DNA of 64,000 nt from Synechococcus sp. PCC 7335 (GTDB taxonomy: Bacteria; Cyanobacteriota; Cyanobacteriia; Phormidesmidales; Phormidesmidaceae): NCBI RefSeq assembly GCF_000155595.1, contig NZ_DS989904.1, positions 2,101,243-2,165,242 of the forward strand. Direction: 5' to 3'. The notes beneath the pieces were generated by a model that was not told the origin of the DNA, made no database searches, and was given only the letters and a program-made list of their open reading frames with translations. This document shows, in pieces, positions 28,570 through 47,076 of the stretch. How positions within the stretch are numbered: position 1 is the first letter of the stretch; the number at the start of each line of letters is the position of its first letter. The translations under genes and the position numbers were made by a program.

Positions 28570-29214
28570 ATGAGTCAAGCCATCGACATCGACGCTATTC
28601 GTATAGGTAAGTTAAAGCATTTGAACGGTGCTAGGATAGACGACACCGAACTTTCTGGTTGTGATCTTTCGGGCGTGCGACTTTCTGGAGCTACCTTATC
28701 TGGTAGCAACTTGAGCCGAGCTAATCTGAATCGGGCCTATTTAGAAGGTAGTAACCTAGTCGGCGCCGATCTCTCAGGTGCGGATTTGCGTGCAAACCTG
28801 TGGGGTGCAAACTTGATGCAGTGCAACTTGACTGGCGCTGATCTGCGTGGTGCTAACCTACGAGGTGCAAACCTGATGGGAGCAAATCTAACCGGCGCAA
28901 GCTTGACCGGTGCCTTTTTAAGTGGAGCGACGCTAACAGGCTGCAATCTTAAAAGCGCTGATATGCGAGGGGCCGATCTCCGTGGAGCTAATATCAGCGA
29001 CAGTAATATGAAAGGCGCAGACCTTTCTAGAGCAGACTTGCAAGGGGCTGTGCTTACTGAAGCCAATTTAGAAGAAGCCAATCTCCAAGAAACCAACTTC
29101 AAAGGCGCATCATTAGCAAGAGCGAATCTTCTGTGTGCATACCTAGAAGGTGCAATTATTGTTGGTGCAGACTTGACTGGCACCTGTAAAACGGGAACTG
29201 TCCTAGCACTGTGA
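28570..29214 (+). CDS. Pentapeptide repeat protein
   Basis: 214 residues made almost entirely of A(D/N)LxX repeats from about residue 20 to 205: SGCDLSGVRLSGATLSGSNL, RGANLRGANLMGANLTGASL and many more, about 36 units. Such sequences form a right-handed quadrilateral beta helix. There is no signal peptide or extra domain, so it is cytosolic and probably a structural or binding module. Function is not predictable. The stretch at 29134-29205 ends the coil with a short capping tail. An antisense open frame over it (28737-29183) is an artefact of the repeat composition. Confidence 0.93.
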   Translation: MSQAIDIDAIRIGKLKHLNGARIDDTELSGCDLSGVRLSGATLSGSNLSRANLNRAYLEGSNLVGADLSGADLRANLWGANLMQCNLTGADLRGANLRGANLMGANLTGASLTGAFLSGATLTGCNLKSADMRGADLRGANISDSNMKGADLSRADLQGAVLTEANLEEANLQETNFKGASLARANLLCAYLEGAIIVGADLTGTCKTGTVLAL

Positions 29215-30045: not shown

Positions 30046-31194
30046 ATGAAAATCGCTTTAGTACATGATTATCTTAATCAGCGAGGAGGGGCAGAAAGGG
30101 TCTTTGAAATGTTCTGCAATCATTTCCCTGATGCTGATGTTTACACCTCTGTGTATGATCCTAAAAGTACTATTGAGCTGCGAAATCGCCTAGTCAAAAC
30201 AACTTTCTTACAGAACGTTCCAGGTGCAAAGCGCTATTTTCGTCTGTTTGCTCCACTGTATTTCCCGGCCTTTCGAGCGCTCGATCTTGAGGCTTATGAT
30301 CTCATTATCAGTAGCTCCTCTAGCTTTGCCAAAGCTGTCAAGAAGCGCCCTGATGCCCGCCACATTTGTTTTTGTCATAACGTCTCTAGGTTCCTTTGGG
30401 ATACCAAGACATATTTAGGTGGGTATCAGGAGTTTGAAGCGTTTGAACCCTTCTTGAAGCTTGTTTTTAGCTACATGAAAAGGCAAGATATCACCTATGC
30501 CGGAGAGCCAGATATCTATGTTGCAAATTCGACGACAGTCGCAAAACGCATTCGTAGCATATATAGAAAGAAGGTGCTGACAATCAACTATCCAATTAAC
30601 GACGACTGCTTTACGTTTAGTGATCAAAAAGAGGACTTCTATCTTGTTTCTTCGAGATTGCTAAGCTACAAGCGTGTAGACGTTATTGTAGAAGCTTTTA
30701 ATCAGCTAGGCTGGCCTTTACGAATTATTGGTATCGGTCCGGAGCAGCAAAGATTAGAAGCTAAGGCTGCAAGTAACATACAGTTTCTAGGTCATGTCAG
30801 CGATGATACCCGAAGGCAGCTGTTTTCAACGGCTAAATCGGTCATTGTTGCAGCCTTAGAAGACTATGGTTTAGTTCCTGTCGAAGCGAACTTCAGTGGG
30901 ACTCCTGTTATCGCTTTTGGCGCAGGTGGCGCTTTAGACACTCAGGTATCGGGTAAAACGGGTATCCTTTTTCAAGAGCAAACTGCGGCATCTTTATGTT
31001 CAGCGTTGATAGAAGCTCAGTCTGTGAAATGGGACTACGCTGCTATTCAACGTCATGCTAAAGAAAAATTCACGCGAGAAGCTTTTTTTAGAAAAGTAGA
31101 TCGAATGATCACCAACTTGGACACGTTTCTAGCAGAAGCAGAAACAGGGCAGATCAATACGTCTGCGGAGTCTTATGCATCGATGGGCTATTAG
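30046..31194 (+). CDS. Family 4 glycosyltransferase
   Basis: 382 residues, GT-B fold. N-terminal MKIALVHDYLNQRGGAERVFEMFC has the GGAE acceptor-side glycine loop; the C-terminal half has LVSSRLLSYKRVDVIVEAFNQLG and the donor-site E-x7-E-like motif ALEDYGLVPVEANFSGTPVIAFGAGGALD. It most resembles WbaZ-type mannosyl or related transferases of polysaccharide clusters. It is the first gene of the long same-strand block, 15 bases before the Wzc-like gene. The sugar donor and acceptor cannot be read from the sequence. Confidence 0.92.
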   Translation: MKIALVHDYLNQRGGAERVFEMFCNHFPDADVYTSVYDPKSTIELRNRLVKTTFLQNVPGAKRYFRLFAPLYFPAFRALDLEAYDLIISSSSSFAKAVKKRPDARHICFCHNVSRFLWDTKTYLGGYQEFEAFEPFLKLVFSYMKRQDITYAGEPDIYVANSTTVAKRIRSIYRKKVLTINYPINDDCFTFSDQKEDFYLVSSRLLSYKRVDVIVEAFNQLGWPLRIIGIGPEQQRLEAKAASNIQFLGHVSDDTRRQLFSTAKSVIVAALEDYGLVPVEANFSGTPVIAFGAGGALDTQVSGKTGILFQEQTAASLCSALIEAQSVKWDYAAIQRHAKEKFTREAFFRKVDRMITNLDTFLAEAETGQINTSAESYASMGY

Positions 31195-31209: not shown

Positions 31210-33462
31210 ATGGACCAGAAGTTAGGCATCTTGCAGATGGAAGTGGGTCAGGTTTATCAAAGGGGAAATATGGTTCAGCCTGTAGAGCAGGAGTTCGGAT
31301 ACGTCCAGCTTCTTAATGTCTTATTACGAAGAGGCTGGTGGGTAGTTGGTACGATTAGTCTTGCTTTGGTCACGGCTCTTCTATTCACACTTACTCGAGA
31401 TCCAATCTACCAAAGCTCAATGCAGATGATCATCGAGCCTAATTTTGAAGAGGAGCTAGATCCAGCAGAGTTAGATAGAACCCCCTCACAACGTCAAAGG
31501 GAAGAAAACCTCGCTACTCAGCTCAATCTAATGCGTAGTCGGGAGCTGCTCCAAAGGGCAGTCGACTCACTACAAGATGCTTATCCTGAACTGACGGCTC
31601 AAACAGTAAGAAGTTCTCTAAGCTTGTCGCGCGTTCAAGAAGGGGGCGATGAAACACGTATTGTCGGTATTGTTTATACCGATACTGATCCCGTTAGAGC
31701 CGAGCGTATTCTAGAAGCTCTCCAGGCTGTCTACTTAAGCTATGCGCTTGAGCGTCAAGAGCAGCGTCTCAATCAAGGATTAGGTGCTATTGATAATCAG
31801 TTTGACGAGGCTAGGCGGAGTCTATCTTCGTCACAGTCGAGACTTAAAGAATTTCGACAAAATCAAGACATCATCGATCCAGAGCGGCAGGCAACAGTAG
31901 TTACTGACTCCCTCAATAGGATCCTATCTGAGCAGCGCTCTTTAGAAACCGAATATCAAGAAGCTCTCGCTAGGTATAACACCTTACGTGAACAGATTTC
32001 GCTGTCAGAGGATAGCGCGATCGCAGCAGCAAGACTCAGTCAGTCTGCTCGATTTCAATCATTACTGAATGCACTGCAGGAAACAGAACTGGCGCTAGCA
32101 GAGCGCCGGGTTATTTATTCAGATGCCGATCCAGGTGTACAAGGTCTAGTCGCCCAGCGCCAAAACCAGCTAGAGCTTCTAAGACAAGAAGCACAGAGGG
32201 TTCTTGGCAGCGATGCTGCTGGAATTACCTCAGCTGAAAGCCTTCAGGACTTTGGGCAACTCAGTGCCTTGGACTTGAACCTAGTTCAAAATCTCGCTGA
32301 AGTAGAAAGTACGCTTGAAGGTTTAACCGCTCGCCGACAGAGCTTAGTGCAAGCGGAGCAGGAAGCTAGAGCAGAACTAGACCAATTCCCGGAGCTAATT
32401 GATAGCTACAACCGCCTAGAGCCCGAGGTTCAGACTCAGCAAACTGTCTTAGAACAGCTGCTAAGACAGCGAGAATTACTCAGTTCACAGTTGGCAAGAG
32501 GTGGGTTTAACTGGCAGGTTGTAGCTAACCCCTCTTTAGGCGTGAAGATAGGGCCAGACCATCGGAAGAATATGCTGTTAGGCGCTGTAGCTGGATTGGT
32601 CTTAGGAGGAACAGTCGCCTTTATTCGCGAAGCCCTAGACGATGTGATTCGAACTCCAAAAGATATACAGCGATTAGCTCCGGTTCCGTTGCTGGGCGTT
32701 CTATCTGACAAAAAGCCATCAGACGCTGTGAGAACACCACACTCGGTTCCGGTTTATCAACACAACGGTGAACGCTTAGAAGCTGGTTACTGGCTTTCTC
32801 TACGAGATTCTCTAGATCTCATCTACAAGAGTGTCCAACTCTATCAAACCGACGTTGCAAAGTCCTTGGCTATTACTTCGACACGCTCTGCTGAGAGTTC
32901 GTCCACACTAGCAGTAGGCTTGGCATTAAGCGCGGCTCGTATTGGTCAGCGCGTGATTATTGTGGATGCAAACTTACGCTCTTCTACGCTTCAAGAAAGA
33001 TTCAACTTCCCGGAGGGACGAGGGCTTAACGCACTATTAGATCAGCCCGCTACCAGGCTAATTCCTGTTTCCACTACGTTACTTGGAACTTCAATCGATG
33101 TATTACCAGCAACGCTTGAAGCGCATGATTCTATAAAGATATTGTCTTCGCCGCGCTTCCGCGTCCTGATTGAAGCTTTGGAAAACCGGTACGACCTGGT
33201 TATTCTTGACTCTCCACCTGTTTTAGGATCTGCAGATGTTTTAGAGATTGCGGCCTGCTGTGGTGATCTGGTATTGGTAGCTCCATTAAACCAAACCACT
33301 GAAGAGGAACTGCAAGCCTCACTGGCCGCGTTGAGTCAACTAAACAACCTAGCGGGAATAGTAGCTAGTGATGTGCCTTACCCAGCTGCAAACAGTGTTA
33401 ACACTGATACTACCTATCCGGGCAAGCTAAACTCGCAAGCGACCGAGCTATCACTCAGCTAG
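31210..33462 (+). CDS. Wzc/GumC-like polysaccharide co-polymerase with non-canonical kinase domain
   Basis: 750 residues. A membrane helix at about 43-62 and a second at about 455-472 bracket a large periplasmic coiled-coil region (roughly 190-430), the layout of Wzz/Wzc chain-length regulators. The cytoplasmic domain (about 520-740) looks like a BY-kinase: VIIVDANLRSSTLQERF (Walker A'), LVILDSPPVLGSADV (Walker B). But the Walker A, usually TSxxPGEGKST, reads TSTRSAESSST (556-566), so the lysine is Ser564 and the glycines are lost. A clustered tyrosine tail is absent. It probably regulates chain length without tyrosine kinase activity, or relies on another kinase. It is followed by an ABC exporter. 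Confidence 0.88.
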   Translation: MDQKLGILQMEVGQVYQRGNMVQPVEQEFGYVQLLNVLLRRGWWVVGTISLALVTALLFTLTRDPIYQSSMQMIIEPNFEEELDPAELDRTPSQRQREENLATQLNLMRSRELLQRAVDSLQDAYPELTAQTVRSSLSLSRVQEGGDETRIVGIVYTDTDPVRAERILEALQAVYLSYALERQEQRLNQGLGAIDNQFDEARRSLSSSQSRLKEFRQNQDIIDPERQATVVTDSLNRILSEQRSLETEYQEALARYNTLREQISLSEDSAIAAARLSQSARFQSLLNALQETELALAERRVIYSDADPGVQGLVAQRQNQLELLRQEAQRVLGSDAAGITSAESLQDFGQLSALDLNLVQNLAEVESTLEGLTARRQSLVQAEQEARAELDQFPELIDSYNRLEPEVQTQQTVLEQLLRQRELLSSQLARGGFNWQVVANPSLGVKIGPDHRKNMLLGAVAGLVLGGTVAFIREALDDVIRTPKDIQRLAPVPLLGVLSDKKPSDAVRTPHSVPVYQHNGERLEAGYWLSLRDSLDLIYKSVQLYQTDVAKSLAITSTRSAESSSTLAVGLALSAARIGQRVIIVDANLRSSTLQERFNFPEGRGLNALLDQPATRLIPVSTTLLGTSIDVLPATLEAHDSIKILSSPRFRVLIEALENRYDLVILDSPPVLGSADVLEIAACCGDLVLVAPLNQTTEEELQASLAALSQLNNLAGIVASDVPYPAANSVNTDTTYPGKLNSQATELSLS

Positions 33463-33585: not shown

Positions 33586-35478
33586 ATGAAAAATCAAGTA
33601 AGAAAGAAAAAGATTCCTTTGTTTCTACGACAGCTGATTAAAGCAACTGGTTTTTGGAAAAGCAACGCTCTGATCCTGCGTGAATTCAAGTATTTTCCTA
33701 AAATAATCTTTCTAGCAGTATTATTTACCCTGCTTGCAGCTGTTTTTGAAGGCGCTGGAATTGGTGCTATTCTCACCATTTTGACTAGCCTAATCGATGC
33801 CGACGCCCCTCCTTTGAGAACGGGAGTTAAGTGGTTTGACATTTGGGTATTAGCAGCAAATTCATCGGCTCAGACTCGACTATTTAGGGTCTCGGCACTG
33901 CTGATTTTGATGACGGCTATCAGGGCTGTCTTTACTTACTTTGCCTTTGTGTATGTTGGTATTGGTAAGCTAAAGCTAGGCTACCAGCTGCGCCTGCGAA
34001 TTTTCGAACAGCTTCAGCGACTGCCTCTAGGCTACTTCTCAAAGGTTCGTTCGGGCGGATTGCTCAATAGCATGACGAACGAGATCCAGCAGATCATGCA
34101 GGCGTTCAACTTGTTCAACGTAATGTTGATTCAGGGTTCTCTTCTACTGGTTTACCTCTGTTCAATGTTTCTGATGTCTTGGCAACTATCTCTCCTCTCG
34201 ATAGTGCTGTTTGGACTGCTATCTTATGGAGTCGCCTACCTGCTAAGAAATGTAAGACAGGCAAGTTCAGAGCGTTCTACAGCGAGTAGTCGATATGTTT
34301 CTATCTCCTTGGAGTTCATCAACGGTGTTCGAACAGTTCATGCATTCGCTGCTCATCGATTTGAACGAAAGAGATTCGACAAAAGCAATCAGGACCTGTT
34401 TGAGGCTTCAACTAAGACAGTCTCTTTGATGTCTTTAGCGGGTCCTCTAGTTGAGGGAGTTGCTAGTACAGTCATTATCGTAATGATAGTCTTAGCGGTG
34501 CTAGTACTGGTACCAGCTGGTCAGTTACAGCTAGCCTCTTTGTTAACGTTCCTGTTTGTTCTCTTTCGTGTGATGCCTCTAGTAAAAATTCTGAATGCTT
34601 CAGCTGCGGGCATCCGAAACTTCCATGGGTCATTCGAAAAGATATCTCAGGTTTTGAGGGTAGACGATAAACCTTATATACAAAACGGCTATCTGGAGTT
34701 TCCGGGGCTTGAGCAAGCTATTGTGTTCAACTCGGTTGACTTTGGCTACGAACCCTCCTCACTGGTGCTACGCAACATCAACTTGACAATAGAGAAAGGT
34801 AAAACAACCGCGTTAGTTGGCTCTTCTGGAGCAGGCAAGTCTACGCTAGCAGATTTGATTCCTCGATTTTATGATCCAACTAATGGCCAAGTATTAATTG
34901 ATGGAACTGATTTACGCAAGTTTAATATCAATTCCTACCGTCGAAAACTTTCAGTAGTTAGTCAAGATACGTTCATCTTTAATGATACAATTCGAAACAA
35001 TATTGCCTATGCGTTGGATGATGTTAAGGAGGAAGATCTCCTGCAAGCAACAAGGCTTTCAAATTCTTTAGAATTCATTCAAAAGCTACCTGAAGGCTTT
35101 AATACGGTACTTGGAGATAGAGGAGTAAGGCTCTCAGGGGGGCAGCGTCAAAGGATTGCGATCGCGCGATCACTTTTGCGGCATCCAGAAATTCTTATCT
35201 TAGATGAAGCCACTAGCGCCCTAGATTCTGTCTCAGAACAACTCATTCAAGACTCTATTGAAAAGCTTTCTGTCGGCAGGACCGTGGTAGTTATAGCGCA
35301 CCGGCTATCCACTATTGTTAAGGCCGATAAAGTTGTTGTTCTAGAAAAAGGCAAAATTGTTGAACAGGGCACTTACCAAGAACTCCTTAATCGGAAAGGT
35401 CAGCTTTGGGAGTATCACAACATGCAATTTGGATCTAATACTCCAACGGAGAGAGCACTGAAGGGTCTAGAACTTTAG
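33586..35478 (+). CDS. MsbA-like ABC exporter (fused membrane and ATPase domains)
   Basis: 630 residues. Six hydrophobic helices within residues 35-330 are followed by a nucleotide-binding domain with Walker A VGSSGAGKSTLADLIPRFYDP, signature VRLSGGQRQRIAIARSLLR, Walker B ILILDEATSALD and switch histidine in VVVIAHRLSTI. This is the architecture of lipid or lipid-linked oligosaccharide flippases such as MsbA and PglK. Position inside a glycosyltransferase-sulfotransferase cluster without a visible Wzx suggests that it moves the lipid-linked repeat unit across the inner membrane. That substrate is inference. There is 123 bases of spacer before it. Confidence 0.92.
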   Translation: MKNQVRKKKIPLFLRQLIKATGFWKSNALILREFKYFPKIIFLAVLFTLLAAVFEGAGIGAILTILTSLIDADAPPLRTGVKWFDIWVLAANSSAQTRLFRVSALLILMTAIRAVFTYFAFVYVGIGKLKLGYQLRLRIFEQLQRLPLGYFSKVRSGGLLNSMTNEIQQIMQAFNLFNVMLIQGSLLLVYLCSMFLMSWQLSLLSIVLFGLLSYGVAYLLRNVRQASSERSTASSRYVSISLEFINGVRTVHAFAAHRFERKRFDKSNQDLFEASTKTVSLMSLAGPLVEGVASTVIIVMIVLAVLVLVPAGQLQLASLLTFLFVLFRVMPLVKILNASAAGIRNFHGSFEKISQVLRVDDKPYIQNGYLEFPGLEQAIVFNSVDFGYEPSSLVLRNINLTIEKGKTTALVGSSGAGKSTLADLIPRFYDPTNGQVLIDGTDLRKFNINSYRRKLSVVSQDTFIFNDTIRNNIAYALDDVKEEDLLQATRLSNSLEFIQKLPEGFNTVLGDRGVRLSGGQRQRIAIARSLLRHPEILILDEATSALDSVSEQLIQDSIEKLSVGRTVVVIAHRLSTIVKADKVVVLEKGKIVEQGTYQELLNRKGQLWEYHNMQFGSNTPTERALKGLEL

Positions 35479-35603: not shown

Positions 35604-36539
35604 ATGTGCGCAACCAAAGAAAAGACAAAACAGAGCGATCGCTCGATTAGCTTGTGTATTTGCACAATGAACAGACCAGAAGATCTTGAAAAATGTCTAG
35701 AAAGTGTCTTTCAAAGCAAAATCAAGCCAGATGAGGTAATTGTCAGCGACGATAGCCCCAATCCAGAACCTACCCTAGCAGTCATCGCCAAATATCCTGC
35801 TGTGATTTACCAAACTGGCCCTAGGTTGGGTTTAGGGCCGAATCGCAATGCTTGTATTCGACGAGCGCAGAGTACCCATCTCATGTTTATCGACGACGAT
35901 GTGTGCGTACCACCAGATTGCTTTGAGATTGCGTACGAGCTCATTGCACAAACGCCAGAGGCAGTCATTACTGGCTATGAAATGAAGCATAGAAGCTGGG
36001 AAGGAGAAGGCACCGTCAAGAAGATTCTGCCGCATAATGCAGATTTCTGGGGAACGATGAAAATCCCTGTGAGTGATTCAGACTGTTGTTCAGTGGTGAT
36101 GAACTCGACTATTTTCCCAACTAGTTTGTTTAAAGAAGCGTTGTTTGACGAGTGCCTACGCTATGGTTATGAAGAGCTAGATATTGCTCGTCATGCAGTT
36201 GCACTTGGTTACGAGATTGTCCATAGGGATAATCTGTGGGTTAACCACTATCAGTCTTTAGTTGATAGAGCTAGCAATTGGGATCGAGTGCTCGCATCCC
36301 AACTATATACAACCGCAAAAGCCTACTTTTTCTACGAAAAGTCAATTCCCAAAGCGCTGACCTATACATTGGTTGCCCCTTTGAAAATGACGGCTGGCTT
36401 AATTAAGCAGAAGGACCCAAAGGCTATACACAAGGGTATTAAAGCGACTATCTCAGCCTATCAGCACTTTTTTAGCCGTAAGGAAAAAGGTTTTGTTAGC
36501 AAGCGTAAAGATTACCCAATGGCCAAGGCCTCTCGATGA
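35604..36539 (+). CDS. Family 2 glycosyltransferase
   Basis: 311 residues. The GT-A start SISLCICTMNRPEDLEKCLESV and the donor motif in LMFIDDDVCVPPDC (DDD) are plain. A second acidic/GY(E)ELDIARHAVALGYE motif follows near residue 190-205, as in GT2 enzymes. The C-terminus is helical and basic, without clear membrane spans. It is probably soluble or membrane-associated. It precedes the first sulfotransferase gene by 38 bases. Confidence 0.9.
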   Translation: MCATKEKTKQSDRSISLCICTMNRPEDLEKCLESVFQSKIKPDEVIVSDDSPNPEPTLAVIAKYPAVIYQTGPRLGLGPNRNACIRRAQSTHLMFIDDDVCVPPDCFEIAYELIAQTPEAVITGYEMKHRSWEGEGTVKKILPHNADFWGTMKIPVSDSDCCSVVMNSTIFPTSLFKEALFDECLRYGYEELDIARHAVALGYEIVHRDNLWVNHYQSLVDRASNWDRVLASQLYTTAKAYFFYEKSIPKALTYTLVAPLKMTAGLIKQKDPKAIHKGIKATISAYQHFFSRKEKGFVSKRKDYPMAKASR

Positions 36540-36577: not shown

Positions 36578-37471
36578 ATGGTACAACCTAACTTTCTGAT
36601 TATAGGAGCTGCCAAAGCGGGTACAAGTTCTCTATATCATTACCTAAATGAGCATCCTCAAATTTATATGAGCCCGGTCAAAGAACCTAGATTCTTTGCA
36701 CCAGAGCTCTACACAGACTATCTGAAAGACCCCTATAGGAGCGGAGCGAAAGAGCATCGAAGCACTCCTATGAGTCTAGAAGAGTATCTTGCCCTATTTG
36801 AAGGTGTATCAAACGAAGTTGCTATTGGAGAAGCATCAACAGAGTATTTGTATGTACCTAAGACACCTAAGCGGATTAAAGAACAACTTCCAGATGTCAA
36901 ACTGATCTCAGTCTTGCGAGATCCAGCTGAGAGAGCCTACTCAGCATTTTGCTATCAGGTCCGTGATGGCTGCGAGCACCTAAGTTTTGAGGAAGCACTT
37001 ACCCAAGAAGAGAGTCGTAGGCTCGAAAAAAAACGTTGGCCCGGTTGGCACTACCAGCGAGTTGGATTTTACTACGAACAGGTAAAACGCTACTTCGATC
37101 TCTTCGATAGAGAGCAGATGAAGATATACCTTTACAAAGACCTGCAAGCTGACAGTAAAGCTGTTGTTCAAGATGCCTGTCGCTTTTTAGGAGTTGAGGA
37201 TACTTTTACGCCTGATTTGACTCGCCGTAATGTTTCAGCAATTCCTAAGAATATGGCACTACAAAACTTACTAATCAAAGACAATCCGCTAAAGACGGTT
37301 GTAAAGCCACTTATTCCTAGTAGCTTACGTAAGTCAATTAGAAGCCAGAACCTGAAGAAGAAACCAGCTTTGTCCTCAGAGATTCGGCAAAAGCTGGTTG
37401 CCAACTACCGAGAAGATATTCTAAAGCTACAAGATCTTATTCAAAAAGACCTTTCTCATTGGCTATCTTGA
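36578..37471 (+). CDS. PAPS-dependent sulfotransferase
   Basis: 297 residues of the heparan sulfate sulfotransferase-like family. The 5'-phosphosulfate loop is IIGAAKAGTSSLYHYLNEHP near residues 6-25; the 3'-phosphate contact is VLRDPAERAYSAFCYQVRDG near 110-130; YLYKDLQADSKAVVQDACRFLG is typical. It would transfer sulfate from PAPS to a hydroxyl of a sugar. A same-length paralogue lies at 45105-45998. Its place in the cluster says that the target is the exopolysaccharide. Confidence 0.92.
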   Translation: MVQPNFLIIGAAKAGTSSLYHYLNEHPQIYMSPVKEPRFFAPELYTDYLKDPYRSGAKEHRSTPMSLEEYLALFEGVSNEVAIGEASTEYLYVPKTPKRIKEQLPDVKLISVLRDPAERAYSAFCYQVRDGCEHLSFEEALTQEESRRLEKKRWPGWHYQRVGFYYEQVKRYFDLFDREQMKIYLYKDLQADSKAVVQDACRFLGVEDTFTPDLTRRNVSAIPKNMALQNLLIKDNPLKTVVKPLIPSSLRKSIRSQNLKKKPALSSEIRQKLVANYREDILKLQDLIQKDLSHWLS

Positions 37472-37572
37472 CTACGCTGACTAATTATTGAACCGAATAG
37501 ATATCACCGCCAACTATATGCCTTTCTAGCTTGTCCAAAGAGAGTAAGGTTGTGTCATTTAGTCTTAGTATC

Positions 37573-38523
37573 ATGCAAAGTAAAGAGAGTATCCATACGC
37601 AGGTTGACTCAAATCAAGCTGGTTCAAAAGCGTTTGAATATCCCATACCACTCGAGTACAACGTTATCTTTGGATGTCCTCGTTCAGGAACAACTTTCCT
37701 GTTTGAAGCGCTAAATGCCCTACCCAATTCTGAATGTTCTTCTGGGCATCTATTCCCGCTAGCGCTAGCACACTTAGTTAATCAAAACCTATCGCCTGAG
37801 ATCTACCAGTGTATTGCAAATAGCTTTGAATTTTCTATTCAAGATTACCTTGAAGCTGTTTATGGCAATCGTGTGACCTCTATACATAAATGGCTACTGA
37901 AGTCGATGAGTACGCAAGAGCTACTCCAGTCGCTCAAAGCCCAAAGAACTATTGAACGGTTCGTGTACAAAGAGCCGTTTCTAGCATTCTCTCCAGAGCT
38001 TGTATACAACGCCTTGCCAGAGTGTCGAATCATTCATATCTATCGAGATGGCCGGGACTGTGCTGACTCGCTAGCACGTAAGTACAAAGTGCTGACAGAT
38101 GAAAAGCTAATGACGTTTAAAACGGCGGAGATGCCATTAGGTCGACAATACGACCATCGATATGTTCCGTGGTGGGTTGAAGTAGGTAAGGAAGAAGCGT
38201 TCATGAGCTACACCCCTTACATACGATCGATTTGGATGTGGAAGGAGATGGTCCGCCGCTGTCACGAGTTTATATCGCGTCCAGATGTTGTAGCTAGCGG
38301 ACGAATCATGACTGTTAAGTATGAGGATCTCGTGCGATCGCCTTTGGAACACGGTGAGCAGATAGTCAATCACTTTAGATGTGATATGACAGATCAGCTG
38401 CGAGCGAAGTTTAAGACAGCCAGGCAAAGTTCGGTTAATATTCACAAACGTCGAGATCCCGAAGAACTGAAGCTAGCTGAGGAAGTCGCCTACGAAGAAC
38501 TCACACAATATGGCTATCTCTAG
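37573..38523 (+). CDS. Sulfotransferase family protein, second type
   Basis: About 316 residues from the ATG at 37573; a TTG at 37531 adds 14 residues. It has the 5'-phosphosulfate loop VIFGCPRSGTTFLFEALNAL, a 3'-phosphate region IHIYRDGRDCADSLARKYKV, and MTVKYEDLVRSPLEHGEQIV, which are general sulfotransferase motifs. It is only distantly like the 297-residue pair, so it probably modifies another position of the glycan. It overlaps no neighbour and lies 102 bases after the first sulfotransferase gene. Confidence 0.88.
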   Translation: MQSKESIHTQVDSNQAGSKAFEYPIPLEYNVIFGCPRSGTTFLFEALNALPNSECSSGHLFPLALAHLVNQNLSPEIYQCIANSFEFSIQDYLEAVYGNRVTSIHKWLLKSMSTQELLQSLKAQRTIERFVYKEPFLAFSPELVYNALPECRIIHIYRDGRDCADSLARKYKVLTDEKLMTFKTAEMPLGRQYDHRYVPWWVEVGKEEAFMSYTPYIRSIWMWKEMVRRCHEFISRPDVVASGRIMTVKYEDLVRSPLEHGEQIVNHFRCDMTDQLRAKFKTARQSSVNIHKRRDPEELKLAEEVAYEELTQYGYL

Positions 38524-38579
38524 CAGGCTACTAAAAGGTCACTACTCAGTTGATAAGGGGCATTCTAAGGTCTTGAACA

Positions 38580-40622
38580 ATGATTAAGTCTCTTAAAAAG
38601 CATTCGATTTTAAAAGGGGTTGTTCTGACGCTCATAGCGTTTGCGATCGCCTTGATGGCTCACGCTATTTATAGTCAACAGGGCGCTGAAAGACTTGCTT
38701 TATCAACTCGAGGTCAGCAGTGGTTTGAGTCTCAAGAGCTGCTATCTGATGTGCCTGCGCTATTTGATATTGGTGTTACAGATATCAACCAAGATGGTGA
38801 TCTAGATGTATACACTTCTAATCACAGTGAGAAGCAATTTCTACTATTTGGACAGACCGATGGTACGTTTGATGAACGTCCTATTTCCTCGCTGTCGTTA
38901 AACCAAGACCCAGACTTTCCTGGACTAGAGCCTGCAGCTGCGCCAGTAATGGATGAACCCGGGGTCTATATTTACTGGGACAGGCGACGGATTGTAATCG
39001 AGTGCAAAGATCTAGCGTCTTTACTAGGCCCATCAGCTGGGAGTGAAAATTTTGGTTCTGGCACCATTCAAGTATCTTCGCCGATGAATGTCATCGACAG
39101 CAACGGCTTTGACATTGACATTCAAGAAGAAGAACTCGCTTCGGGAGCCATTATCTCTACCACTCAATTTAGTATTGATACCGAAGAGGCTAAGACTGTT
39201 TTAGGCTCATACAACCAAAGTCTACCCGTCTCTCTTGAGCTAAACACCGAACTTAGTCTCAACCAGATATACGTGGGCGTTGACAAGGTTAATCCTGCTG
39301 CCTACGACTTTACTATGTACCTACGAGATCGTCATGGAATGGCATGGGCTGACTACGACGGACAGGGGTTTCTAGATGTCTTTATTGTTCGTGGTGGGCT
39401 AAGGGCCAGAATGGAAACGCTGCCTGAGCGATATACAGATGAATTACTAGTAGACTCAAGGGTAGCCAATTCAGAAGAAACTACATACACCAATATCGTC
39501 GATGATGTCGGTATTGAAAAAAAGGCCTGCCCTGCCTTGCAGACAGCCTGGGTAGATTTTAATGCGGATGGACTATTAGATATCTATACTGTCTGTTTCA
39601 CCCCACCGACTGCAACACGTTCTTATGCTAATCAGCTCTACCAGCAGCTTCCCCATGGACGCTTTAGAGATGTAGCATCGGATGTTGGTTTAGATATCAC
39701 CGATGACGGCTCGTTTGTATGGCTAGATGCAAATCGAGATCGAGCAGTTGACCTGATATGGGTGGGCGAAGAGGCTTTCTGGCTATATCTCAATCAAGAT
39801 GGGAAATTTGAACCGCGAAGAATTGGTGACAATCCAGGGACAGTAGTTGAGACCTTTAGTGACAGTAGTAAGTTAACAGTCGCAGACTACGATAACGACG
39901 GTGATCTAGACGTGTTCTTCGCCTCTCCAGGGGGAAATGCACTACTGTCGAACGATCAAGGAAACTACGTTGTGTTGGATTTGGAATCTTTACAGCTTCC
40001 TACTCGATCCTACACTGCTAATTGGGTCGACTATGACAACGACGGGCGAGCTGATTTGCACGTAGCGCCTGACGGTCTGTATCGGCAAACGACCGCTAAA
40101 ACGTTTGAACCGGTTCAGCTGCTAGGGGAAGAAGCAACTTTGCTCCAAAAAGCTTTCGCCACTTGGTTTGATGCAAACAACGATGGCCGATTAGATCTAC
40201 TATGGGCCTCATCCTACCGACCATCCAAGCTGCAATCACTTTATCAACGGATAAGTCAGAAGATACTTGGAGGCGAGTTCACAACTGAAAGCTCGGCTGT
40301 GACACTGTATTCAGGCGTCGGAGGAACAAGTGCAGATACTCAAAACCATTGGTTGCAGCTTGATTTGACAGGATCAGCTAAAAACAGACAGGCAATTGGG
40401 GCGCTCGTTGAATTGATCACTGCTGAAGGTACTCAGCTTCAAACTGTCGGACAATTTGAAGGATCTCAGTTTTCGCAGGGACACTATCGCTTGTACTTCG
40501 GAGTAGGCAAGCAGCAGTCTATTGATCTAGTGCGAGTGTATTGGCCAGATGGATCATCCCAAGAAGTTCAAGATGTCGATGCCGACCAGCGACTGACTAT
40601 TAGTCAAGCTAACGAACTCTAA
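38580..40622 (+). CDS. FG-GAP/VCBS repeat protein with C-terminal ASPIC/UnbV domain
   Basis: 680 residues. An N-terminal hydrophobic segment (GVVLTLIAFAIALMAHAIYS, about 14-33) acts as signal peptide or anchor. The body has calcium-loop FG-GAP units with D-x-[ND]-x-DG-x-x-D: DINQDGDLDVY, DFNADGLLDIY, DYDNDGDLDVF, DYDNDGRADLH and DANNDGRLDLL, typical of a seven-bladed beta propeller. The last 110 residues (NHWLQLDLTGSAKNRQAIGA ... VRVYWPDGSSQEVQDV) are the ASPIC/UnbV domain. It is exported and probably binds calcium and a ligand at the surface. Being enclosed by sulfotransferase genes suggests that it recognises or processes the sulfated glycan, but this is inference. Confidence 0.88.
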   Translation: MIKSLKKHSILKGVVLTLIAFAIALMAHAIYSQQGAERLALSTRGQQWFESQELLSDVPALFDIGVTDINQDGDLDVYTSNHSEKQFLLFGQTDGTFDERPISSLSLNQDPDFPGLEPAAAPVMDEPGVYIYWDRRRIVIECKDLASLLGPSAGSENFGSGTIQVSSPMNVIDSNGFDIDIQEEELASGAIISTTQFSIDTEEAKTVLGSYNQSLPVSLELNTELSLNQIYVGVDKVNPAAYDFTMYLRDRHGMAWADYDGQGFLDVFIVRGGLRARMETLPERYTDELLVDSRVANSEETTYTNIVDDVGIEKKACPALQTAWVDFNADGLLDIYTVCFTPPTATRSYANQLYQQLPHGRFRDVASDVGLDITDDGSFVWLDANRDRAVDLIWVGEEAFWLYLNQDGKFEPRRIGDNPGTVVETFSDSSKLTVADYDNDGDLDVFFASPGGNALLSNDQGNYVVLDLESLQLPTRSYTANWVDYDNDGRADLHVAPDGLYRQTTAKTFEPVQLLGEEATLLQKAFATWFDANNDGRLDLLWASSYRPSKLQSLYQRISQKILGGEFTTESSAVTLYSGVGGTSADTQNHWLQLDLTGSAKNRQAIGALVELITAEGTQLQTVGQFEGSQFSQGHYRLYFGVGKQQSIDLVRVYWPDGSSQEVQDVDADQRLTISQANEL

Positions 40623-40949
40623 TCACAACAAAGCCTCTAAAACACCCTCTCTAGCATCGTTTTGCGCTAGAGCTACTTTGTCATCTCCATTTATCTCACT
40701 TTTACATAGCTGCGTTGGTCTTTGTAGGCTCCGTGAACTATATCGGTAAGTTCCCCGTTCAATAGAAGTGGAGTGATATGTTGCTTAATGATCGAACACT
40801 GAGTTCTTTGGAATCAATCCTTCTATAGCAGTTGGCACTCTTACCGGATAGTAATAGTAGTTACTAGGGAAGTGCTGCAACGCTCCAGTCGGGCTGTTTT
40901 AGGGTTCTCCGTCAGCTATTAGTTTCTTAAAATCAGACATAGATAAGAT
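40623..40949. other. Spacer before the large FG-GAP protein
   Basis: 327 bases with no supported gene, RNA or terminator. It presumably contains a promoter, so the 1352-residue protein may be expressed separately from the upstream part of the cluster. Confidence 0.5.
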
Positions 40950-43900
40950 ATGTGCAATTACTGCGATGCCTACTCAGCTCTTGTTAGCGCAGACCCCTCC
41001 CAAACAAGCCTACAAACTGAGGCTGCCCAGCTACTACAGCCGGCTTTGGAGATGATGCTCGGCGCCGACAGTCAGGCGATCGCACCCGCCGCTGAGACGG
41101 CACAAGCAAACGAAGCAGCACTCACCCAAACGCTGTCGCTCGTCGTCGAGGAACTGCAGACCCGGCTTACTAGTTTTGCCAATAGCGAAGTCGAGACGCT
41201 AGAGAACATGAGACTCGCCTTCGGGGATAGCTTCAGCGCTGAAGCCGCAACCACTCTATTGGAAGCATGGCAAGCGGGAGACTTCGAGGTACTACCTACC
41301 ATCGAGTTCCTTTCCGCCGCCGAGCTCGGCAGTGCGAACGGTGCCTACGCAGCACAAACAGAGACCATCTATCTATCGGCCGAAGCGTTCGAGCTCTACC
41401 AGAACGATATTGCTAGGCTGAGCGCTATCGTCGCCGAAGAACTAGGCCACCATATCGATACGGTTTTGAACGGCGCCGTCGATAGTCAGGGGGACGAAGG
41501 GGCAATCTTCTCCGCGCTAGTTCAGGGGGAAGCGCTATCGGCAGAGCAGTTGCAGAGTCTGCAGCAAGAGGATGACCAGGTCACTATCGTCATAAGTGAT
41601 GGAGGTAGTGATGAAAGTAGTGATGCTCAAGGGACTCGCACTATCGAGGTTGAGCAAAACCAGACGAGTCAGATTAGCTTCGAGGATGTGACCGAAAGCG
41701 CCGGCGACTTCATCTCCGGCCGTAGCTATGGTGCGGGCGCTTGGGGCGACTTCAACGGCGACGGCCTACCTGACCTATGGGTGAACAACCACTTCGGTAG
41801 TGGCCGCAACCTGTTCGTCAACAATGGCGATGGGACGTTTACCGACATCGTCAACCAAGTCGAAGCTGGCAACTCTGATGTCTTTCTCGAGAGCGAAATT
41901 CGCGGTGACTTCCATGGCGTTGCCTGGGCTGACTTCGACAACGATGGCGACCAGGACTTACTGCAGCTGGTTGGTGGCGAAGGTAACACTAGCACACTTG
42001 GCCAAGAGAACACGGGTGATCGCAGCGAACCCAACCGTTTGTACGTCAACGAGAACGGCGTGCTACGAGACCGAGCACCTGAGTTAGGACTGTCTTATAA
42101 CAGCGCCAAAGCCCAGACCCCTACCTGGCTAGACTACGACAACGACGGCAGACTCGACCTGTTCCACGGCTCTACCCAACGCGCCGATGGCCTCAACCCC
42201 ACAACTGTCTTTCGTCAGAACGCCAACGGCCGCTTCGACGATGTTGGTGATACGGTTCTGCCCACCGAACTGGTCAACAAGACCGTTCGCTTCGGTGGTT
42301 TGGGCTACCTATCGGACCAGGACCTCTACGACCTAGTCCTACCGGGTGCGATCGCCGACCTGTTCGATGTCACGACGACACCGTTCACGAACATCGTCGA
42401 TGAGACTATCGGCGGTTCAAAGCGGCTCAAAGGTGCTAGGGATTTCGCCTTCGCCGACTTCAACAACGATGGACTGATAGATGCCTACCTAGCGAGAGCG
42501 CAGGCAGACCGATTGTTCTACAACACCGCTGACGGTGGTTTAGTTGGCGTTAGCGATAGTGCCGGCATCGATGCAGTCGATACCAGCAAAGCGGCGGGTG
42601 TAGTCGCTGCTGACTTCGACAACGATATGGATGTCGATATCTACGTAGTACGAGAAAGTGCGAACGGTAGTAACCTCCCGAACATCCTGTTCGACAACCA
42701 GGGCGATGGTACGTTTGTTGCTGTTGCCAACCAGGGCGGTGCGGTATCGGCAACGACAGGAGTCGGTGACAACGCGACGGTAGCGGACTACGACGGCGAT
42801 GGCTTCATGGACCTGTTCGTGACCAACGGTGCGAAGACGGCGCTTCGCGGACCGCAGCAGCTGTTCCGCAACCGGGGGAACGAGAACAACTGGCTACAGA
42901 TAGACCTGGCTGGGGCAGTGAGTCTGACCGATAGTGAGGGGAACGTTCGGGTCGGGACGAACCGGGATGGGATTGGTGCGCAGGTGTATGTAACGGCGGG
43001 GGGAGTGACGCAGCGGCGCGACCAGAACGGCGGGGTGCATAAGCATTCGCAAGACTTCCAGCGGCTGCACTTTGGACTAGCGCAGAACGAGCAGGTAGAG
43101 CGGATAGAGGTACGCTGGCCGAGCGGTGTGGTGCAGGTACTAGAGAACGTCAACGTCAACCAAGTCATCACGATTACTGAACAAATTACGGGCGGTGGGG
43201 GCGGTAGCACTCCAGTTGCTGCTGATGACACCGTCACAACTGTCGAGGACACCGCAGTCATTTTCGGTGAGACAACGCTGCTTAGTAATGACAATCTAGG
43301 TGATATTCCGACAACTATCACTGCAGTAGATACTGTTAGCGCTAAGGGGGGTGCTATTACAGGTAATTCAGATAGCACTTACACTTACACACCAGCCACA
43401 GATTTTGTTGGAACAGATAGCTTTAGCTACACCATTACTGATGATGATGGGGAAACTAGCAGCGCTACCGTCACGGTCACAGTTACACCACAGCCAAGCA
43501 GCGATGGACTGCTTACTGATGGATTGGTCTTGAATTTAAACGCAGATGCAGGGGTATCTGTCGATACTAATGGGGTTGTCAGTGGCTGGGCGGATCAGTC
43601 TGAATTTGGAAATGATCTAATCAGCGCTGGAGATCCTAGCCTATTAGTTGATGCGCTCAACGGTCGCAACGTTATCGAATTCGATGGGGTTGGAGATAAA
43701 CTAAGTCGGACCTTGGAGTTGAACGGTCTACCTGGGGGGAATGCAGAGCGTACGGTATTCCTAGTCGCTAAATATGATGGAACAGGTTATGGCGGTGCTG
43801 CCTACGGCGACAGTTCCAAGAACCAGACTTTTGGCGCTGTTGTCGATCCTAACGGAAACCTGATGGCTCAAGGCTGGGGAGGAAGAAATGACTTCAGTAG

Positions 43901-45008
43901 CGGAGAGCTTGGCACTGGCACAGGATGGCTTTTGCAAGGAATTGTTCATGACGGAACTACAGTCAGCCAGTACCGAGACGGTAACTTAATCGATAGTAGA
44001 AACCATACCTACAATACAGATGTTGTTAATGGTGAAGGCTTAGTTATTGGAGCTGAGATCGACAGCACCCCTAATGTCAATATGGATGTTGCCACTCTAT
44101 TAATATATGACCGGTCGCTTTCTACTAATGAACGACAGCAGGTAGAGACTTACTTACAGGAAAAGTATTTCTCCAACGACCAGAACGATCAAGGTGGTGG
44201 TGGATCGGATGGGAATACCGGTAATCCAACTGATGATGCTGATTTACTCTTCAGTCTCAGAAATGGAATTTACTTGGATGGAATTGCCACCCGGTCTGAA
44301 GATATCGTTCGGTACGATGGCACCAGCTTTAGTCTTTTCTTCGATGGTTCGGATGTTGGTCTTGGTGGCAAAGGTATGAACGTCGATGCCTTCACGGTTA
44401 TTAGTGATAGCGAACTCTTAATATCCTTTGATAAGGCCATGACCCTAGAGGGGGCCGGAGAGATAGATGATTCCGACGTAGTCAAATTCACTGCGACTTC
44501 ACTAGGTGAAGTGACAGCTGGAACCTTTGAGCTATATCTAGATGGAAGCGATGTCGGCCTTACAAAGGGGGAAGAAGATATCGATGGCTTAACTGGGCTG
44601 TCTGATGGTAGTTTGTTGATCTCTACTCAAGGGCCATCTAATGTCCCCGGTGCTAGTGCGAATAACGAAGACCTTCTACTATTTAGACCGACGTCTTTAG
44701 GCGAGAACACCAGTGGCAGTTGGTCTGTATACTTTGATGGTAGCGATGTTGGGCTAGGAGACGATAGCCAAGAATTTATAGACGGAATAGCAACGGATGC
44801 TGCTGACAAGCTGCTTTTCTCTGCGGCTGGCAATTTCGATGTACCAGGACTGTCAGGAGCTGATGATGATGTATTCGGTTTCACTGCATCCTCAGTTGGA
44901 TCAACTACTACTGGTAGCTTTGATACGGGGTTACTCTTCGACGGATCTAGTTTTGGACTAGATAAGGTGAACATTGATGCCATTTCTCTAACGGCACCAG
45001 CCTCGTAG
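40950..45008 (+). CDS. Large multidomain surface protein: FG-GAP, ASPIC/UnbV, Ig-like, LamG-like and DGSDVGL repeats
   Basis: 1352 residues. In order: an N-terminal domain (1-215) with a zincin-like ARLSAIVAEELGHHID around 155-170, often found at the front of large cyanobacterial exported proteins; FG-GAP propeller units at about 240-635 (FNGDGLPDLW, FDNDGDQDLL, YDNDGRLDLF, FNNDGLIDAY, FDNDMDVDIY, YDGDGFMDLF); ASPIC/UnbV at about 636-745 (NWLQIDLAG, IEVRWPSGVVQVLENV); a cadherin-like Ig repeat at 755-850; a LamG/ConA-like module at 853-1075; and a C-terminal array with three DGSDVGL and one DGSSFGL. No Sec signal peptide is visible, so type I secretion is possible, though RTX nonapeptides are missing. 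The first 2.2 kb is markedly richer in GC than the rest, suggesting mosaic origin. The C-terminal half shares its LamG module with the gene at 61333. Confidence 0.85.
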   Translation: MCNYCDAYSALVSADPSQTSLQTEAAQLLQPALEMMLGADSQAIAPAAETAQANEAALTQTLSLVVEELQTRLTSFANSEVETLENMRLAFGDSFSAEAATTLLEAWQAGDFEVLPTIEFLSAAELGSANGAYAAQTETIYLSAEAFELYQNDIARLSAIVAEELGHHIDTVLNGAVDSQGDEGAIFSALVQGEALSAEQLQSLQQEDDQVTIVISDGGSDESSDAQGTRTIEVEQNQTSQISFEDVTESAGDFISGRSYGAGAWGDFNGDGLPDLWVNNHFGSGRNLFVNNGDGTFTDIVNQVEAGNSDVFLESEIRGDFHGVAWADFDNDGDQDLLQLVGGEGNTSTLGQENTGDRSEPNRLYVNENGVLRDRAPELGLSYNSAKAQTPTWLDYDNDGRLDLFHGSTQRADGLNPTTVFRQNANGRFDDVGDTVLPTELVNKTVRFGGLGYLSDQDLYDLVLPGAIADLFDVTTTPFTNIVDETIGGSKRLKGARDFAFADFNNDGLIDAYLARAQADRLFYNTADGGLVGVSDSAGIDAVDTSKAAGVVAADFDNDMDVDIYVVRESANGSNLPNILFDNQGDGTFVAVANQGGAVSATTGVGDNATVADYDGDGFMDLFVTNGAKTALRGPQQLFRNRGNENNWLQIDLAGAVSLTDSEGNVRVGTNRDGIGAQVYVTAGGVTQRRDQNGGVHKHSQDFQRLHFGLAQNEQVERIEVRWPSGVVQVLENVNVNQVITITEQITGGGGGSTPVAADDTVTTVEDTAVIFGETTLLSNDNLGDIPTTITAVDTVSAKGGAITGNSDSTYTYTPATDFVGTDSFSYTITDDDGETSSATVTVTVTPQPSSDGLLTDGLVLNLNADAGVSVDTNGVVSGWADQSEFGNDLISAGDPSLLVDALNGRNVIEFDGVGDKLSRTLELNGLPGGNAERTVFLVAKYDGTGYGGAAYGDSSKNQTFGAVVDPNGNLMAQGWGGRNDFSSGELGTGTGWLLQGIVHDGTTVSQYRDGNLIDSRNHTYNTDVVNGEGLVIGAEIDSTPNVNMDVATLLIYDRSLSTNERQQVETYLQEKYFSNDQNDQGGGGSDGNTGNPTDDADLLFSLRNGIYLDGIATRSEDIVRYDGTSFSLFFDGSDVGLGGKGMNVDAFTVISDSELLISFDKAMTLEGAGEIDDSDVVKFTATSLGEVTAGTFELYLDGSDVGLTKGEEDIDGLTGLSDGSLLISTQGPSNVPGASANNEDLLLFRPTSLGENTSGSWSVYFDGSDVGLGDDSQEFIDGIATDAADKLLFSAAGNFDVPGLSGADDDVFGFTASSVGSTTTGSFDTGLLFDGSSFGLDKVNIDAISLTAPAS

Positions 45009-45074
45009 GCTCCTAGCCCAGAGAACCTATGCTAGACGTATTGATCGGACAGCCGCTTTTGCTGAATTTTTATT

Positions 45075-45098
45075 GCCTAGGCTAGTGCCTAGGCTAGT
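45075..45098. repeat. 12-bp tandem duplication before a sulfotransferase gene
   Basis: GCCTAGGCTAGT occurs twice in a row and ends 6 bases before the ATG at 45105, where the ribosome binding site would be expected. Each unit contains the palindrome CCTAGG. No clear Shine-Dalgarno sequence is left in this interval. Confidence 0.75.
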
Positions 45099-45104
45099 CC
45101 TACC

Positions 45105-45998
45105 ATGCATATGCCTAACTTTTTGATAATTGGTGCGGCAAAGGCCGGAACTACTTCGCTCTACTCATACCTAGCTCAGCATCCACAAGTCTATATGAGT
45201 GCGCAAAAAGAGCCTCGATTCTTTGCACTAGAAGGTGAAGAGCCTAACTATGGCGGCATCACTCAGGGTATCAACCGAGGTTCTATTAGTACGCTAGAGG
45301 ACTATCAGAAGCTATTTAAGGGAGTCAGTGACGAAGCGGCTATCGGCGAAGCATCAACCATCTACCTTTACAGCGAAAAAGCAAGTGAACGTATTCAACA
45401 TCACATTCCTAACGTTAGGCTGATTGCCGTTTTGCGAAATCCGGCTGACCGTGCCTTCTCAAGCTATGTTCATTTGGTCCGTGACGGGTTTGAGACGCTG
45501 AGCTTCGCCGAGGGACTTCAAGCAGAACCGCGTCGCCGAGAAGAAAACTGGCAGCCTCTATGGTTCTATCAGCATAGGGGATTTTACTATGAACAGCTAA
45601 AGCGGTATTTCGATCGGTTTGATAGTGAGCAGATACAGGTATATCTGTACGAAGATTTGGTAAAAAGTGCTCAGACGGTCGCACAAGATATTTATCGTTT
45701 CTTGGGTGTCGATGATAGTTTTGTGCCTGATCTAACGCGCTCCAACGTATCGGGTATTCCAAAACGTCGCTGGCTGCAAAATCTTTTTATGAAGGATAAC
45801 CCCTTAAAGACAGCAGTTAAGCCGCTGCTGCCCAAACAGATGCGCAAACGCATTTCTCGTGATGTTCATCGTAAAAACACGGGCGATAAGCCGACATTTC
45901 CTGTAGAAGTTCGTCAGCAATTGGTAGAGACCTATCGTGAAGACGTTTTGAAGCTTCAAGATCTACTCAATCGCGATCTTTCTATCTGGTTAAAATGA
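45105..45998 (+). CDS. PAPS-dependent sulfotransferase, paralogue of 36578-37471
   Basis: 297 residues, the same length as the first one and alignable end to end: PNFLIIGAAKAGTTSLYSYL (5'-phosphosulfate loop), QKEPRFFAL, GEASTIYLYSEKAS, VRLIAVLRNPADRAFSSY (3'-phosphate site), VRDGFETLSFAEGL, VPDLTRSNVSGIPKRRWLQN, and a C-terminal EVRQQLVETYREDVLKLQDL matching EIRQKLVANYREDILKLQDL. A local duplication is the simplest reading; the copies have diverged enough to have different acceptor positions. ATG codons at 45105 and 45111 are both usable. Confidence 0.92.
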   Translation: MHMPNFLIIGAAKAGTTSLYSYLAQHPQVYMSAQKEPRFFALEGEEPNYGGITQGINRGSISTLEDYQKLFKGVSDEAAIGEASTIYLYSEKASERIQHHIPNVRLIAVLRNPADRAFSSYVHLVRDGFETLSFAEGLQAEPRRREENWQPLWFYQHRGFYYEQLKRYFDRFDSEQIQVYLYEDLVKSAQTVAQDIYRFLGVDDSFVPDLTRSNVSGIPKRRWLQNLFMKDNPLKTAVKPLLPKQMRKRISRDVHRKNTGDKPTFPVEVRQQLVETYREDVLKLQDLLNRDLSIWLK

Positions 45999-46041
45999 CG
46001 GGAGCATTGTTCTTATATCTTTAGTGTTTAAAACTTAAATC

Positions 46042-46986
46042 ATGTTGACGGTTACTGCTGTTATCCCTACCTACCGCCGCCCAAAGGATCTAGAGCGTTG
46101 CCTTACTGCCTTCAAGCGGCAAAACCATCCCGCTGATGAAGTTATTGTTGTAGCTAGAGATACAGATACTGAAACGTGGACATTTCTAGAATTGTTTGAC
46201 CCCGAAGCGTTGCCATTAAAAACAGTTAGTGTCTCAATTCCTGGGGTGGTAGCGGCTATGAACGCCGGTCTAGATGCTGCTAGCAGCGATATTGTTGTTT
46301 ATACTGACGACGATGCTGCACCTCTGCCAGATTGGATTAAACAAATGGAAGCCCACTTTGCATCTGATGAAAAGATTGGGGCGGTAGGTGGACGAGATAT
46401 CTTGCATGGTATTACCCATATCAAGTTTATCGAAACTGAGACAGTTGGTCAGGTCCAGTGGTGCGGTCGAATTATCGGCAATCATAGCTTCGGGATAGGA
46501 GAGGCTAGAGAAGTTGATTTGCTCAAGGGTGTCAACATGGGCTTCCGACGGGTAGCACTAGAAAAGGTTCGTTTTGATGAGCGTATGAGAGGAACTGGAG
46601 CACAAGTCTTTTTTGAAGATGCCTGTTGCTTATCACTAAAGCGCCAGGGATGGAAGATCATCTATGATCCTCGAATTTTAGTCGACCACTATCCAGCGCA
46701 GCGCCACGACGAAGATCAGCGAAGACAGTTTGCCTCAGCAGCTCACATCAATCAGGTTCACAACGGAACGCTGAACTTGCTAGAACACTTTTCGCCACTG
46801 CGAAGAGTTGTTTTTCTTACCTGGGGTGCGCTAATTGGCACTAGAGGGAATCGTGGACTGGTGCAGTGTCTGAGATTTTTGCCTAAAGAAGGGTTACTGT
46901 CTATTCGCAAAACTCAAGCTTCCCTGAGAGGTCAGTGGGAAGGTGTGCAAACTTGGCGGAAGGGTTCACGCAAGGCCATAGGATAA
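46042..46986 (+). CDS. Family 2 glycosyltransferase
   Basis: 314 residues. The GT-A N-terminus TVTAVIPTYRRPKDLERCLTAF and the DxD-type VVYTDDDAAPLPDW are clear; GVNMGFRRVALEKVRFDERM and the catalytic-region FFEDACCLSLKRQGWKIIYDP follow. The C-terminal 70 residues carry a weak hydrophobic stretch (VVFLTWGALIGT). It is followed almost directly by a GT4 gene. Donor and acceptor are unknown. Confidence 0.92.
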   Translation: MLTVTAVIPTYRRPKDLERCLTAFKRQNHPADEVIVVARDTDTETWTFLELFDPEALPLKTVSVSIPGVVAAMNAGLDAASSDIVVYTDDDAAPLPDWIKQMEAHFASDEKIGAVGGRDILHGITHIKFIETETVGQVQWCGRIIGNHSFGIGEAREVDLLKGVNMGFRRVALEKVRFDERMRGTGAQVFFEDACCLSLKRQGWKIIYDPRILVDHYPAQRHDEDQRRQFASAAHINQVHNGTLNLLEHFSPLRRVVFLTWGALIGTRGNRGLVQCLRFLPKEGLLSIRKTQASLRGQWEGVQTWRKGSRKAIG

Positions 46987-47076
46987 GGGGTGTTGACTTG
47001 CTTTAGGAGCGTAGAGAGTAGTGGAAGAGCTGTTGATTTCCGGATTGTTAGCGAAACGCTTAGAAAGGATTTATCA

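Follow-up and report, generated by a model that had tools for sequence, protein, structure and literature searches.

The co-polymerase gene and its locus

The window considered here is a stretch of 64,000 nucleotides of the cyanobacterium Synechococcus sp. PCC 7335 (contig NZ_DS989904.1, positions 2,101,243 to 2,165,242). On its forward strand lies a gene for a Wzc-like PCP-2a protein with a degenerate kinase-like domain (31210-33462, +), an open frame of 750 amino acids. In a second species of the same genus, Cf. Phormidesmis sp. LEGE 11477 (L008/L059), codons 4 and 9 of this frame are TAG stops. Translation therefore probably begins not at the ATG of 31210 but at a later methionine, M10 (31237) or M21 (31270) being the likelier starts. 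Pfam finds Wzz (2e-06), AAA_31 (5.1e-06) and, below its gathering score, GNVR (0.00038), and the best NCBIfam matches are to Wzc-type and eps-family models, all 20 of them below their cut-offs. The protein has the parts of a PCP-2a co-polymerase: a Wzz domain including the first membrane segment (residues 32-120; 31303-31569), a large periplasmic region, a GNVR-like stretch that ends in the second membrane segment (residues 402-475; 32413-32634), both segments being read by eye, and a fused cytoplasmic BY-kinase-like domain of the P-loop NTPase fold (residues 536-725; 32815-33384), recognised from profile and structure-sequence matches. A C-terminal tail of 29 residues follows (33373-33459). 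An AlphaFold2 model built from two sequences has a mean pLDDT of 42.7, too poor for judging the P-loop.

The gene is flanked by two conserved partners, a family 4 glycosyltransferase upstream (30046-31194, +) and an ABC exporter downstream (33586-35478, +), which holds the hepA position by gene order and has its own Walker A intact. Further along the same strand come a family 2 glycosyltransferase (35604-36539), two sulfotransferases (36578-37471 and 37531-38523; 36578-38523 together), a third sulfotransferase (45105-45998), glycosyltransferases of family 2 (46042-46986) and family 4 (46990-48219), a fourth sulfotransferase (48279-49223), a possible Wzy-type polymerase (49318-50739) and another family 4 glycosyltransferase (50809-51960). 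The possible polymerase has no Pfam match itself; its relatives among the reading frames of L218 and L219 match Wzy_C weakly, below the curated cut-off. The stretch from 36578 to 49223 contains, besides the four sulfotransferases, two ASPIC/UnbV FG-GAP proteins. From the sulfotransferases the sugar product is probably sulfated; such enzymes are known in cyanobacterial polysaccharide clusters from the work on synechan (PMC8205485). The locus L219, from a genome of the same family (G010), contains a sulfotransferase relative as well. Large cadherin/Big_9 surface-protein genes lie beyond 49223, towards the window end. Ahead of the first glycosyltransferase, a pentapeptide-repeat gene (28570-29214) is overlapped by a long frame on the opposite strand (28737-29183, minus) that is also open in L059 (3277-3942) and is probably a by-product of the repeat.

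Relatives of the gene commonly keep the order family 4 glycosyltransferase, PCP, sugar transferase (Bac_transf), ABC exporter. In the window, in LEGE 11477 and in the G010 locus (L045/L219), no Bac_transf gene separates PCP and exporter. The genome has six Bac_transf genes, none of them in the window and the nearest about 8 kb ahead of its start. OPX genes are likewise missing from the window; the genome has three, two beside other PCP genes and one about 20 kb past the window end.

Loop, tail and selection in the kinase-like domain

The first-pass annotation had read a ruined Walker A motif here, and gapless alignment bears it out. The loop is TSTRSAESSST (residues 556-566; 32875-32907), and in local alignments with two intact paralogues and with MinD/Mrp-type ATPases the Walker A lysine falls at S564 and the preceding glycine at S563. 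The lysine and glycines that mark an active BY-kinase are absent. Walker A' (VIIVDANLR, residues 582-590; 32953-32979) and Walker B (YDLVILDSPP, residues 661-670; 33190-33219) are kept, as the annotation had also said, with D586, R590 and D667 in place and residues 580-600 identical in LEGE 11477. In place of the second Walker A' Asp the window protein has Asn, as do 44 of the 150 subfamily members with a residue there. Judged from the residues, only Walker A is gone among the three Walker motifs.

Two further positions bear on the nucleotide site. At residue 720 (33367-33369) the window protein has Ser, where all 145 other members with a residue have Asn; an Asn near this position binds adenine in related ATPases, and Asn720 of the other members may do the same. 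Within the loop, R559 falls on the 'signature lysine' position of MinD/ParA ATPases when ITSTRSAESSST is aligned without gaps to MTSGKGGVGKTT from the MinD-type ATPase of this genome. Both the window and LEGE 11477 have Arg at 559, with the same codon, while the 149 other members with a residue there have Leu in 131 cases, Lys in one and Arg in none.

The second species carries the locus at large. Its PCP is 85% identical in protein sequence, the two loci are collinear from a radical-SAM gene through the first ASPIC protein, and its loop reads AATRSSASSST, so the degenerate loop is not an assembly error. Seven of the 11 loop residues are the same in the two species and four differ. No P-loop was found in the other two local frames around 32875-32907, and a frameshift is ruled out by these frames, the gapless alignment and the second species together. 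The annotation had itself weighed a sequencing error in a gene with intact orthologues; such orthologues exist, and it is the LEGE 11477 loop that disposes of the error. Since the loss is common to both known species of the lineage, it most simply predates their split.

The kinase-like domain has nonetheless been retained under purifying selection, as observed in this one species pair. NG86 estimates of dN/dS between the window and LEGE 11477 are 0.078 for the whole gene and 0.058 for residues 536-725, both rough because dS exceeds 1 for gene and domain. The corresponding values are 0.055 for the periplasmic residues 63-440, 0.20 for residues 441-535 and 0.21 for the tail, and six neighbouring genes give 0.023-0.048. 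The domain is still 84% identical while synonymous change nears saturation, and this together with the low dN/dS shows that it is kept though its loop is gone.

What of the missing tyrosine cluster, the other sign of inactivity noted at the outset? The tail has two tyrosines in its 29 residues and that of LEGE 11477 has none, the two tails being 48% identical over residues 726-750, and the tyrosine-rich tail of active BY-kinases is indeed absent. This is not peculiar to the gene. Among the 146 subfamily members with at least 10 tail residues, 0, 1, 2, 3 and 4 tyrosines occur in 12, 45, 65, 23 and 1 members, a median of two, with a single member reaching four. A comparison set of 29 paralogous PCPs from cyanobacteria, which includes several near kin, differs: 24 carry a tail, with five tyrosines as the median and four or more in 22, and the other five have no tail at all. 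Another cyanobacterial PCP group (L019, L024, L027, L028, L057) has an intact P-loop and ends directly after the kinase fold. The ExxRxxR oligomerisation motif is absent too. At the site of this octamer motif (E-x2-R-x2-R) the window protein has D-x2-D-x2-Y (residues 533-539; 32806-32826), and the subfamily has a signature around RESLDLIYKNIQL at residues 532-543, E/D-x2-D-x2-Y, with D536 in all 149 other members that have a residue there and Y539 in 135. On these alignments the sparse tail tyrosines and the missing ExxRxxR are traits of the subfamily, separate from the loss of the loop.

Distribution and history of the lysine loss

Matches to the subfamily at E 1e-100 or better occur in 139 of 388 genomes, an even draw from a larger group of the class, with a cut-off and a shortened list of matches that could hide degenerate members. 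Among the matches listed, 152 sequences were compared (the window, L059, L009, L032-L047 and L060-L192), leaving out a partial match in G305 that ends ahead of the loop. The Walker A lysine column holds K in 148, S in two (the window and LEGE 11477), R in one (L045) and a gap in one. The lysine being present in 148 of 151, the intact state is ancestral and the loss derived. The question whether orthologues share the altered loop, put by the first-pass annotation, is therefore answered two ways: LEGE 11477 is degenerate too, and 148 of the 151 members keep the lysine. L045, a distant subfamily member from G010, has the loop EEGRTT, in which arginine replaces lysine. Elsewhere, no further lysine-loss lineage was found among the loci read in the family of G236 (36 genomes): loops are intact in 13 of 14 further loci, L237-L250, which are mostly more distant PCPs, L248 stopping short of the loop. 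L127 and L136 have weakened loops (DDAKS and DISKS) in which the lysine is kept, and these are possibly early stages of loss.

The three proteins without the lysine stand out over the rest of the domain. At columns conserved in at least 90% of members, LEGE 11477 departs at 14 of 45, L045 at 12 of 46 and the window protein at 11 of 45, the three highest values among 150 sequences with a median of 2.3%. Changes common to the window and LEGE 11477 include G563S, K564S, G635T, N720S, P592S and H595Q. Each lysine-loss lineage thus shows a general drift of the kinase-like domain. Branch lengths on a fixed topology of 79 sequences, compared between the N part and the C part over 83 long branches, point the same way: the stem of the window and LEGE 11477 measures 0.451 in the N part and 1.069 in the C part, a ratio of 2.37 against a median of 0.76, which ranks third, and the L045 branch ranks fourth (1.88). 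The LEGE 11477 tip, too, is long in the C part (0.132 vs 0.049), and the window's own tip has a ratio of 0.98. The two branches above the stem (L169, and L084 with L158 and L169) carry an intact lysine, so the ratio alone is no proof of lost activity.

In a tree of 25 chosen N-part sequences L045 falls among intact relatives (100/99) and apart from the window lineage, and forcing the two into one clade, as a single shared loss would have it, is disfavoured on the same sequences (p-AU 0.037). Two lineages have therefore lost the lysine. The genus of the window has seven genomes. Besides the two with the degenerate loop, G003 also has the locus, and there the loop is intact (L009); the best PCP matches in the other four reach at most 31-34% identity. 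The intact G003 copy is rejected as the nearest kin of the window gene (p-AU 0.0026), and therefore the PCP gene has not simply tracked the genus. The placement of L009/L218 suggests a transfer or an old duplication.

Loss of the Bac_transf gene was also considered as a cause or companion of the lysine loss. In a tally by hand over flanks of about 1.5 kb (leaving out L010, a paralogue, and L046 and L047, contig end), Bac_transf lies near the PCP gene in neither of the two lysine-loss loci and in 27 of 33 lysine-intact ones, in L062 upstream of it; Fisher's test gives p 0.047 with kinship ignored. Six lysine-intact loci (L032, L033, L063, L064, L066 and L069) also do without it, and the connection was set aside.

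A candidate fused pseudokinase and its known counterparts

The reading that best accounts for these findings, at a probability of about 0.62, is that in the window protein, a PCP-2a co-polymerase, the fused BY-kinase domain has turned into a pseudokinase and is kept as a scaffold. The domain is homologous to BY-kinases, has lost catalytic residues and is retained by selection. It would no longer bind or hydrolyse ATP productively, as the joint loss of lysine, loop glycines and Asn720 suggests. The annotation had rested loss of ATP binding on the lysine, and this was too strong: the K540 mutation of E. coli Wzc abolishes phosphorylation (PMC8285477), yet K540M structures were solved with ADP (PMC11986026), so loss of the lysine alone does not abolish nucleotide binding. 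As a scaffold the domain would form the cytoplasmic base of the PCP oligomer, tied to the two membrane helices, and polymerisation and export of the probably sulfated polysaccharide would not be switched by tyrosine phosphorylation. The annotation's idea of a pseudokinase acting by structure fits the loop loss in a second species and the purifying selection; its use of the tyrosine cluster falls away, as that was not the same event.

The least certain step is how the oligomer would be held and released. The Wzc octamer falls apart when its tail is autophosphorylated, and the K540M mutant forms homogeneous octamers (PMC8285477); the VpsO mutant K551A is likewise highly oligomeric and overproduces VPS (PMC7485978). 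By analogy with these mutants, a protein without the lysine would have no means of coming apart by autophosphorylation and should remain assembled. The analogy is incomplete, however. ExxRxxR is reported to matter for oligomerisation of VpsO, Wzc and CapB (PMC7485978, PMC3795738), and VpsO mutants in this motif, or with tail tyrosines changed to Ala or Phe, form weaker oligomers and make less VPS (PMC7485978), which would cut against an easy reading of permanent assembly. Because the subfamily is without both ExxRxxR and a tyrosine-rich tail, another interface or other partners would be needed: either a permanent assembly through that interface, or holding and release by those partners.

Could the loop be remodelled and not dead, its Ser- and Arg-rich residues still binding a structural cofactor, be it ATP, ADP or some other phosphate ligand? 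The retention of Walker A' and Walker B counts against a pure scaffold, which would not need them; R559 on the signature-lysine position, by the same codon in both species and in none of 149 others, would be in keeping with a remodelled phosphate site, as would the ADP in K540M Wzc (PMC11986026). The loss of both consensus loop glycines and of Asn720 weighs on the other side, and four of 11 loop residues differing between the species is loose for a working site, which makes this reading unlikely. About as unlikely is a partnership with an active kinase, in which the window protein would form mixed oligomers with, or be phosphorylated by, an intact Wzc-like protein of the genome. The genome does encode two intact paralogues (loops AGEGKS and PNEGKS, four tail tyrosines each) and one gene of the LMW phosphatase family, and interplay of active and inactive BY-kinases has been proposed for CapB2 and CapB1 (PMC3795738). 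The identity to the paralogues is just 25-27%, though, each of them adjoins its own OPX gene, the tail offers two tyrosines in the window and none in LEGE 11477, and the authors of the EcpK study argue that BY pseudokinases are independent of active BYKs (PMC12004946); the annotation's suggestion of an ATP-independent partner of a kinase elsewhere gains no support, with the same OPX genes and tails speaking against it.

That the gene is simply decaying, or an artefact of assembly, is highly improbable. The C part of its stem is fast and its tail poorly conserved, but the frame is open in two species, dN/dS is low (0.078 over the gene, 0.058 over the domain), the neighbours are conserved and the adjoining exporter keeps its Walker A. 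A broader proposal is tentative and in our view doubtful, namely that the whole subfamily, with ExxDxxY at the ExxRxxR site and few tail tyrosines, forms a class of PCPs in which ATP binding serves as the assembly switch and tyrosine phosphorylation plays no part, and that the window and G010 lineages separately dropped the switch. If true, the two lineages would provide before-and-after pairs of one machine.

The fused pseudokinase favoured here has counterparts among known systems. The nearest solved structures by sequence are those of Wzc (E 1.1e-24), and the window protein shares with Wzc and VpsO the order Wzz, periplasmic region, GNVR-like stretch, membrane segment and P-loop NTPase domain, with Walker A' and B kept. 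It differs from them in lacking the P-loop lysine and glycines, ExxRxxR and the tyrosine-rich tail; the last two absences are subfamily-wide, whereas lysine loss, among the 151 members with the site, is confined to the window lineage (Ser) and G010 (Arg). Within the phylum, a survey describes most PCPs as PCP-2a-like with canonical Walker motifs 'in many cases' (PMC4594306), and a different cyanobacterial Wzc, Sll0923 of Synechocystis, reportedly acts as an ATPase and autokinase (PMC6562117), so catalytic loss is not general there. By gene order only, the locus may correspond to the heterocyst envelope island of Anabaena 7120, alr2832-alr2833-hepC-hepA, which has the same order as the window's relatives (PMC4390870); the window has the family 4 glycosyltransferase, PCP and ABC exporter of this island and is without Bac_transf. 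The gene at the PCP position, alr2833, is tabulated there as 'hypothetical' (PMC4390870). Homology-based naming calls for caution: 'tyrosine kinase' is a doubtful label for cyanobacterial proteins of a subfamily without the tail and oligomer motif of the known phosphorylation cycle.

A search of open-licence PMC literature for an earlier cyanobacterial fused BY pseudokinase found none. BY pseudokinases as such, fused ones included, have already been described. EcpK with EpsV in Myxococcus and HfsB with HfsA in Caulobacter have in common with the window protein a BY-kinase-like fold without the catalytic motif that serves a PCP in exopolysaccharide export (PMC12004946), and they raise the question of how a PCP works without a kinase. 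EcpK and HfsB stand alone, whereas the window domain is fused, and EcpK has none of the Walker motifs and is missing several fold elements, whereas the window protein is without Walker A only (PMC12004946). The same paper also lists PCP-2 proteins with a fused pseudokinase, among them SMc01795 of S. meliloti, with credit to Cuthbertson et al. (PMC12004946); by its description they have PCP and pseudokinase in one chain, like the window protein. What the window protein adds is a cyanobacterial case in which only Walker A is lost and intact orthologues exist. A derived loss in a fused domain, with intact orthologues in the same gene setting, means that loops could be exchanged between the intact and the degenerate versions of one protein.
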